From NCBI GenBank assembly GCA_945870155.1, contig CAMBSB010000031.1, positions 1-40,183 on the forward strand: 40,183 nt of DNA, written 5' to 3'. The translations under genes were made by a program, and so were the position numbers. Source of the DNA: Paludibacter jiangxiensis (GTDB lineage Bacteria > Bacteroidota > Bacteroidia > Bacteroidales > Paludibacteraceae). The notes below the pieces were generated by a model, which saw only the letters and a program-made list of their open reading frames with translations, ran no database searches and was not told where the DNA came from. Positions 9,759 through 34,280 of this stretch are shown in pieces. Every line of letters begins with the position of its first letter. Positions within the stretch are counted from its first letter, which is position 1.

Positions 9759-11009
9759 ATGATTCCATTTAACAAACCATACCTCACTGGCAAAGAAACT
9801 TACTATATTGAACAAGCTGTAAAAACCGGAAAAATTTCGGGCAACGGTATGTTTACCCAGAAATGTCAGCAGTTTTTTGAGCAACATTATGGATTTAAAA
9901 AATGTTTGCTTACTACTTCGTGCACCGATGCGCTTGAGATGGCAGCCATTTTGTGCAATATAAATTCAGGCGATGAAGTAATTATTCCAAGTTATACTTT
10001 TGTATCAACTGCTTTGGCATTTGTGCGTCAAGGTGCAAAAATTGTTTTTGCCGATAGCATGTCCAATCATCCGAATATTGATGCAGAAAAGATAGAAGCA
10101 CTAATTACATCCCGTACCAAAGTTATCGTACCAGTCCATTATGCCGGCGTAGCATGCGATATGGATAAGATAATGCAGTTGGCTGATAAATACAATCTTT
10201 TAGTTGTTGAAGACGCGGCTCAGGCGGTGGATAGCTATTATACTTACCCTGCCCCCCAACCCCCTAAAGGGGGAGCATTAGCGCACTTTATAAGTAGTGG
10301 TGCTACAAAATTGTCCTCTCAACATTCCCCCTTTAGGGGGTTAGGGGGCAAGGAATCTCTCGGAAGCATCGGTCATCTTTCTGCATTTTCGTTTCACGAA
10401 ACAAAAAATATAATTTCAGGCGAAGGAGGCATGTTAGCTATTAACGACGAACGCTTTATTTATCGGGCTGAAATTATATGGGAAAAAGGTACAAATCGGG
10501 CTGAATTCTTTCGAGGTGAAGTAAATAAATATGGTTGGGTTGATATTGGTAGTTCTTTTCTGCCATCGGAAATTATTGCTGCTTTTTTGTGGGCGCAAAT
10601 CGAAAATTTAGATAATATTCAACAAAGACGAAAAAAACTTTGGGAATTATATTACGCTGGTTTAAAACCACTTGCTGACACCAATTGTTTTAGTTTGCCT
10701 AACTTCCCTGAGTATGCAACCAATAACGCACACATGTTTTATTTGATTTGTAACTCATTGAACGAAAGGACAAATCTGATAGATTATTTAAGAAAACATG
10801 ATGTATTATCTGTTTTTCATTATATAAGCCTTCATAGTAGTCCGTATTACAAAATTAATCATGATGGTCGCATTTTACAAAATTGTGATAAATTTACTGA
10901 TTGTTTAGTTAGATTACCTTTATTTTATGAATTAAAAGAGGCTGAAATTTTTGAAATAATTAAAATTATAAGCAATTTTTTCAGTTTAGATCATAAAAAA
11001 ATGGAATAA
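9759..11009 (+). CDS. wecE: dTDP-4-amino-4,6-dideoxygalactose transaminase-like, with repeat-derived insertion
   Basis: PLP-dependent 4-aminotransferase of 416 aa, about 40 residues longer than typical WecE/RffA. Strong WecE marks are IPFNKPYLTGKETYYIEQAV, TTSCTDALEMAA, PVHYAGVACDMDKIM, VVEDAAQAV, AFSFHETKNIISGEGG with the aldimine lysine at about residue 216, and EKGTNRAEFFRGEV. Between YY and KESLGSIGH about 36 extra residues, rich in Pro, Gly and Ser, are encoded by a 107-bp palindromic repeat (10247-10353). The insert keeps the frame and has no stop. It sits between the PLP-binding Asp loop and the lysine, probably as a surface loop near the active site. Whether the enzyme is still active cannot be told. 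Confidence 0.88.
   Translation: MIPFNKPYLTGKETYYIEQAVKTGKISGNGMFTQKCQQFFEQHYGFKKCLLTTSCTDALEMAAILCNINSGDEVIIPSYTFVSTALAFVRQGAKIVFADSMSNHPNIDAEKIEALITSRTKVIVPVHYAGVACDMDKIMQLADKYNLLVVEDAAQAVDSYYTYPAPQPPKGGALAHFISSGATKLSSQHSPFRGLGGKESLGSIGHLSAFSFHETKNIISGEGGMLAINDERFIYRAEIIWEKGTNRAEFFRGEVNKYGWVDIGSSFLPSEIIAAFLWAQIENLDNIQQRRKKLWELYYAGLKPLADTNCFSLPNFPEYATNNAHMFYLICNSLNERTNLIDYLRKHDVLSVFHYISLHSSPYYKINHDGRILQNCDKFTDCLVRLPLFYELKEAEIFEIIKIISNFFSLDHKKME
10247..10353. repeat. Palindromic REP-like element inserted in frame in wecE
   Basis: Two 29-bp arms, 10247-10275 and 10325-10353, are inverted copies matching at 26 of 29 positions around a 49-bp centre. Each arm is itself partly palindromic around CCCCCTAAAGGGGG. 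The GC content is far above the surrounding gene. The family's normal protein sequence resumes directly after the right arm. Related shorter copies lie at 7963 and 34259. Confidence 0.93.
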
Positions 11010-34258: not shown

Positions 34259-34280
34259 CCTCTAACCCCCTAAAGAGGGG
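34259..34280. repeat. GC-rich palindrome in convergent intergenic region
   Basis: CCTCT (34259-34263) pairs with AGAGG (34274-34278) around AACCCCCTAA, then GG. It shares the CCCCCTAAAG core with the arms inside wecE. It sits 6 bp after a stop between two convergent genes and could end transcription, though no T tract follows. Confidence 0.6.

Follow-up and report, generated by a model that had tools for sequence, protein, structure and literature searches.

We describe a palindromic sequence that lies in frame, and is predicted to be translated, within a WecE-like aminotransferase gene of Paludibacter jiangxiensis; the window analysed is a stretch of 40,183 nucleotides. Our favored reading, to which we give a probability of roughly 0.6, is that this insert is a mobile element, short and palindromic, translated with its host and belonging to a palindrome-bounded class in Bacteroidota whose complete form carries an in-frame DUF559 (Vsr-like) endonuclease. 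The preliminary description of the locus had portrayed a REP-like in-frame insertion; that characterization stands, but not as a lone event, since the occupied loop appears to be a hotspot, another genome of the genus has an orthologous-looking insert, and the source genome bears a DUF559 insert in purL.

The palindromic insert in WecE

The gene was described at the outset as an otherwise normal wecE bearing a palindromic repeat in frame, and the arms, the open frame and the family scores confirm this. Its product exceeds the curated cut-offs of both family models (PRK11706.1, 551.6 bits against 375; TIGR02379, 500.3 bits against 434.85), each matching in two stretches, and contains the PLP lysine motif, which together place it in the WecE family; its best PDB matches are 6blg, 4piw and 4zah. 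Residues T162-S200 stand in place of four residues, KGRP, in frame as stated and with a net gain of 35 where about 36 had been estimated, and the lysine that we take, by homology to established knowledge of WecE, to be the PLP-binding aldimine lysine is found at position 216, as anticipated. A structural model, one of the checks proposed, was computed with AlphaFold2 (mean pLDDT 81.1); it sets the insert at a beta-hairpin tip between strands 160-162 and 198-200, with residues 166-195 below a pLDDT of 50, and outside the insert resembles solved WecE structures. Being at the tip of a surface hairpin, the insert is probably tolerated by the enzyme.

Features of the window that bear on the insert are collected in Table 1. 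The arms, originally given as 29 bp with 26 identities, are indeed inverted but measure 28 nt each, are 93% complementary and are spaced by 51 nt. With up to two mismatches their core is found three times in the window, against 0.02 expected. Folded as single-stranded RNA, positions 10243-10356 have predicted z-scores of -7.06 (+ strand) and -8.18 (- strand), equalled by none of 200 shuffles. The arm consensus has one open frame per orientation (LPPNPLKGE and YSPFRGLGG), and the CAA variant present at the WecE site opens a second on the left (APQPPKGG), which is the one used, and another on the right; reading through both arms is therefore no matter of course. The frame is open across both arms and the loop between them, without a stop along the whole of wecE.

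Table 1. The wecE-like gene, its insert and the arm-like sites of the window
Feature	Positions	Strand	Basis or remark
wecE-like gene, 416 aa, dTDP-4-amino-4,6-dideoxygalactose transaminase, insert in frame	9759..11009	+	PRK11706.1, TIGR02379
Translated insert T162-S200, 39 residues, beta-hairpin tip	10242..10358	+	protein comparison (boundaries), AlphaFold2
Left palindromic arm, core CCCCCTAAAGGGGGA at 10260-10274	10247..10274	+	repeat search
Interior between arms, 51 nt, translated in frame	10275..10325	+	
Right palindromic arm, core at 10326-10340 on - strand	10326..10353	-	repeat search
Codon of presumed PLP-binding lysine K216 (HETKN)	10404..10406	+	protein comparison
Single arm-like site, 2 mismatches, intergenic	34266..34280	+	only further one found in window

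Another genome of the genus (G027) has an insert at the same place. Each arm shares 27 of its 28 bases between this genome and the source genome (G000), whereas the gene around it is only 79% and 72% identical; the interiors have diverged, yet can be aligned over 43 columns, and among the sequences compared the 51-nt interior is clearly related to this counterpart only. Judged by these alignments, the two inserts look orthologous and would be common by descent.

The WecE loop in relatives and the arm family

The preliminary description had asked whether the insert occurs throughout the WecE family, and it does not. The loop seen most often in named genomes resembles SYYKGRPLGSIGH: among 78 readable loci (80 fetched), 44 have the 7-residue form, 23 have 8-14 residues and 11 have at least 15, and only L104, L110 and L121, two of them named Paludibacter, have at least 25. 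A closer set of 121 WecE homologues was assembled from best matches only, in which close relatives are over-represented. When 119 of them, the query included, were aligned to the reference P0100 (the reference itself and P0071, with the longest insert, being set aside), all internal insertions of at least 5 residues fell at reference positions 159-165. The loops of the 120 homologues that could be parsed divide into 57 with a two-arm pattern, 53 otherwise long and 10 short, by a rough pattern that misses some two-arm forms. Such comparisons of sequence mark the loop as a hotspot for insertion among close relatives. Within the genus, 15 of 48 genomes match WecE at E <= 1e-100, and two-arm loops occur in three (G000, G027 and G071) of the 14 that are readable; elsewhere among relatives the fillings of the loop include single arms and unrelated repeats. 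Non-palindromic repeats, such as EQRAKSKEQR, RDAACHVST and KEFEVSSKETQ, were seen in the loops of P0017, P0076, P0077, P0081 and P0121. Most named loci have no k-mers common to loop and flanks, and the window scores 0.11 against 0.14 in the control.

A search of the genome for the arms, also proposed earlier, returned 151 exact copies of the core and 259 with at most one mismatch, against none for a reversed control pattern; the original characterization as REP-like is upheld by this abundance and by the mostly intergenic placement of the copies in the sample examined. By hand count, the exact core is present in 25 of 36 same-genus genomes (the source genome included) and in three of 24 others. 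In that sample the arm element is mainly intergenic: of 101 distinct sites, 96 are either not in an open frame of at least 120 residues or only at the margin of one. The remaining five, at least 60 residues from both ends of such a frame, are the two WecE arms, two arms in purL and one site in L266, provisionally counted here. The palindrome thus shares with REPs and REPINs its many intergenic copies, often as inverted pairs.

Among the sites sampled from the source genome we found 42 arm pairs (at most two mismatches, at most 450 nt apart). When the WecE interior was compared with those of the 41 others, 40 scored no higher than the best of 100 shuffles each, and only L268 exceeded its own, barely (15.5 against 15.0); the idea that the WecE interior is a copy of other intergenic pairs was rejected accordingly. 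A near-whole-length match to the element occurs elsewhere in the genome only at C16:34539-34648 (77%), with weaker matches over most of its length at 71-74%. A RAYT was also considered as mobilizer and rejected: the fetched flanks of the six Y1_Tnp loci in this fragmented assembly contain no exact arms, and sites with three mismatches lie near Y1_Tnp only at L031 and L035.

Nuclease-bearing inserts and their host sites

The WecE loop also accommodates a complete nuclease. The homologue P0071 has an entire DUF559 endonuclease domain in this loop, between PPSPLKGE and APPLGGRGA; its model shows a folded domain at about residues 187-300 (10-residue means of 80-92, with a single exception at 54) that loose linkers join to an intact WecE fold, and WecE structures are again the best PDB matches. 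Other DegT aminotransferases carry DUF559 in the matching loop (P0157, P0203, P0212, P0213, P0230 and P0234). Seven DUF559 copies were found in the source genome, four in frames of 140-152 residues and three in frame in large proteins, namely PurL (L041), with exact arm cores on both sides and the only copy found between such cores there, MetH (L043), with arms of another kind, and a methylase-like protein (L042). A methylase-like protein at G000:C98:1-4500 (L218) has a palindrome-coded unit (SPNPSKGGEQD ... LLPSSGGAGGG) repeated several times in frame beside DUF559. Some close homologues of both the WecE of the window and the PurL of this genome are named Paludibacter sp.

DUF559 is present in 37 of 48 genomes of the genus and in 171 of 296 drawn evenly from the phylum, and 39 of the 84 listed genus matches to PF04480 (E <= 1e-28) lie in open frames of more than 500 aa (hand count). 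In 40 regions we assigned 41 domains to purL (8), metH (10), leuS (6), two sites of ileS (3 and 4), valS (3), uvrA (1), methylase-like proteins (2) and other hosts (4). These labels, like those of the nuclease tree below, are presumed from sequence motifs; they were confirmed for valS, ileS, metH and uvrA on one member each and for purL by Pfam on P0244, and no NCBIfam match at E 1e-30 was obtained for L198, L205 or L218. One ileS gene (L184, G022:C52:15500-22500) has two in-frame DUF559 inserts at two different sites. Database searches likewise paired DUF559 with numerous host domains (one list gives the best 120 of 420 matches, the other all 109). Pfam hosts among 20 chosen proteins were SpoIID, RecG, urocanase, carbamoyl phosphate synthase, MutS, RibD, CinA, radical SAM, tryptophan dioxygenase, MazG/PRA-PH, DegT, FGAR-AT (PurL), adenine deaminase, peptidase M24, ABC, acetyl-CoA synthetase, MetRS, LeuRS, UvrA and MetH, and in several the host domain was matched as two stretches flanking DUF559.

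Inverted repeats border most of these domains. After duplicate removal 83 of 106 rows were kept, and 82 (one more row was skipped) entered a test in which repeats in the 220-nt flanks exceeded all 100 dinucleotide shuffles in 68 copies, comprising 42 of 49 embedded and 26 of 33 free ones, and did not in 14. By a mismatched-pair control, 42 of the 83 lay above its 95th percentile; this control is strict because copies share arm families, and dinucleotide shuffles were therefore used too. One aspartate and one glutamate are conserved in all 83 domains; in this family these residues are catalytic. The nearest solved structures to the DUF559 profile are 3hrl (E 1.2e-30) and 3r3p, a 'Mobile intron protein' (E 7.1e-7), and the kinship with homing endonucleases that the latter match indicates holds for the DUF559 form, the WecE insert having no nuclease. 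In purL the dN/dS of the domain is 0.07-0.30 (28 pairs), which points to purifying selection on the nuclease, as would be expected of a living element. All eight embedded copies in purL (L193-L217) have a GC3 of 0.10-0.24, whereas that of the host gene is 0.32-0.41; the low dS of this nuclease, considered as proof of lateral spread, was dropped as confounded by that difference.

Occupancy of two host genes was traced on trees. In eight genomes a stretch of 145-149 residues takes the place of the empty purL turn F-EQADGQT-PIDL, which has 7 residues. On the purL host tree (29 rows for 45 genomes with a match; L312, with a short frame, and matches without a fetched locus were left out) 8 occupied and 21 empty rows require 8 changes, 7 of which are forced by the starred branches alone; a single occupied clade is rejected (p 2.3e-5), and the source genome is sister to the empty G010 with support 100/98. 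For leuS (43 genomes have a match, of which the 30 loci fetched were used) 6 occupied and 24 empty rows require 5 changes, and one clade is again rejected (p 2.5e-5). The scatter is close to that of shuffled labels (8 against 7.2 for purL, 5 against 5.5 for leuS), as scattered gains predict, but by itself it cannot tell gains from losses, and repeated gain could be imitated by losses in which an occupied allele recombines with an empty one. The nuclease tree, of only 114 columns and with long branches, is sorted by host site, needing 11 changes where shuffled labels need 57.4 on average; it holds at most 14 rows per label (84 of 119) and leaves out long-frame domains without a recognized host label. 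Homing predicts site-specific element lineages with scattered hosts, the pattern seen in these trees, and repeated occupancy of one site by nucleases that group by site suggests homing-like behaviour. Co-conversion was sought as well. The 60 nt upstream of the purL insert are common to occupied alleles (0 of 2000 label shuffles), and neither the downstream purL flank (993 of 2000) nor either side in leuS (1982 and 772 of 2000) gave a signal; co-conversion as a general proof of homing was dropped after the leuS result.

Short forms recur as well. Two-arm inserts lie in frame at three further places in leuS of relatives (sites B, C and D) and so resemble, with the WecE insert, the Rickettsia palindromic elements (RPE) considered below. 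In G034 leuS one short copy lies at site A and another at site D; over 107 columns the two are 91% alike, for which reason the short form itself seems to move. At the DUF559 site of leuS, L330 and L350 have only a right-arm-like stretch (LSFGEGRG) left, which looks like a scar. The NFVYR site holds a longer stretch without palindromic arms in L352, L353 and L359 (leuS of G000 and G015 and a leuS-like gene of G062) and a short turn or a palindromic insert in other relatives. The WecE insert may itself be a short, nuclease-less member of the DUF559 elements or a remnant of one. No decayed DUF559 gene was found between the WecE arms, and the sequence there does not resemble the interior of the purL DUF559 element (the comparison gave 13.0, the best shuffle 14.5), so that descent from a complete element is a presumption.

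Competing explanations, related systems and significance

We propose that the DUF559 nuclease would cut empty alleles and that repair would copy the element in, by homing; the insert, spliced from neither RNA nor protein, would be tolerated at a surface hairpin tip. Short forms such as that in WecE would arise by loss of the nuclease or by movement with help in trans, and the WecE copy, common to G000 and G027, would then have been inherited. The broader proposition, that Bacteroidota harbor a class of unspliced, translated homing elements in which palindrome-bounded DUF559 genes sit in turns of essential enzymes and spread by cutting, with short palindromic peptides as non-autonomous members or scars, strikes us as evenly balanced between true and false.

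The strongest competitor, which we think possible though unlikely, is that an ordinary REP-like dimer came to rest in a permissive loop and that DUF559 elements merely share, or picked up, common arm sequences. Other machinery could spread the arms, because nearly all those examined are extragenic (all but 5 of 101 sites) and a single DUF559 copy of this genome was found between exact cores; non-palindromic repeats, too, fill the WecE loop of relatives, and in-frame REP dimers coding 20-30 residues have been reported (PMC3733652, as far as the portion consulted goes). Against this reading stand the significant inverted arms of most DUF559 copies (68 of 82), the complete DUF559 form in the very same loop of P0071, and the lack of an exact arm in the fetched flanks of any of the six Y1_Tnp loci. 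It is improbable that the hairpin or the loop has been retained because it serves WecE or the WecE message in some way, such as expression control or partner contact: the near-identity of the arms within a more divergent gene and the very stable fold would suit such a role, but other relatives have unrelated sequences in the same loop, which is short in most named genomes read.

Splicing by an intein or intron, which would leave the protein normal, seems less probable still. Essential enzymes are occupied at recurrent sites, as they are by inteins and introns, but Pfam revealed no intein or Hint family in P0244 and 19 other DUF559 hosts, Rfam revealed no intron family in five loci (L217, L219, L184, L200 and L236), the WecE insert has only 39 residues, and the junctions read lack the Cys/Ser and His-Asn ends that mark inteins. 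The sole Rfam match in the five loci was mir-188 (L200:4406-4513, - strand; 40.3 of 72 bits, below the gathering score), probably by chance. That the insert reflects an assembly error or a decaying gene, the latter a suspicion raised in the preliminary description, is scarcely credible. The assembly is fragmented (5.79 Mb in 339 contigs), but an error is unlikely because the insert recurs in P0002, 98% identical to this WecE and encoded on another contig, and has its apparent orthologue in G027; the gene is free of stops, its family scores exceed the cut-offs, and nothing pointing to decay was found.

The translated palindrome itself has known counterparts. RPE are short palindromes in frame inside unrelated protein genes, much like the insert in WecE, and the part of the source consulted makes no mention of a nuclease-bearing form (PMC10969869). 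The Paludibacter element differs from them in phylum and sequence, in having a complete form with an endonuclease, and in the repeated occupation of the same sites in related species. Intragenic REPs and REPINs (GTAG/CGTC REPs with RAYT) are likewise palindromes in many intergenic copies, often in inverted pairs, some coding 20-30 residues (PMC3733652, in the portion consulted). Neither a GTAG nor a CGTC tag was read by eye in the arm consensus CTGCCCCCTAACCCCCTAAAGGGGGAATA, however, and it is a DUF559 gene (L041), rather than a Y1_Tnp gene, that lies beside exact arms in the flanks fetched. With inteins and group I introns bearing homing endonucleases the elements share host-site-specific endonuclease lineages, scattered occupancy and, through 3r3p, a distant kinship of the nuclease; they differ in that no splicing element was found in the DUF559 loci scanned. 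The WHO elements of yeast home without need of protein splicing, according to the part of the report consulted (PMC7282813); these replace the 3' end of FBA1, whereas the Bacteroidota element stays inside the frame, between palindromes. Vsr-like DUF559 proteins have the same nuclease domain, but Caulobacter CCNA_02930 is a separate protein, and insertion inside another gene goes unmentioned in the portion of its description consulted. In the literature searched (titles and the starts of abstracts, with most subscription journals outside its scope, so that silence is no proof of absence) we found no description of in-frame DUF559 inserts, nor of a homing-like form that bears a nuclease, is apparently unspliced and occupies many essential genes.

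Ordinarily a selfish element can occupy an essential gene only with the help of splicing. The evidence points instead to elements that remain part of the protein, bring their own endonuclease and persist because they land in turns. If true, this would explain in a new way how mobile DNA and essential genes can coexist, and would reveal variation in protein length that is hidden by annotation, as well as natural tolerance maps for WecE, PurL, MetH and aminoacyl-tRNA synthetases. For short in-frame palindromes like those of Rickettsia, moreover, the DUF559 form would be a candidate for the autonomous partner.
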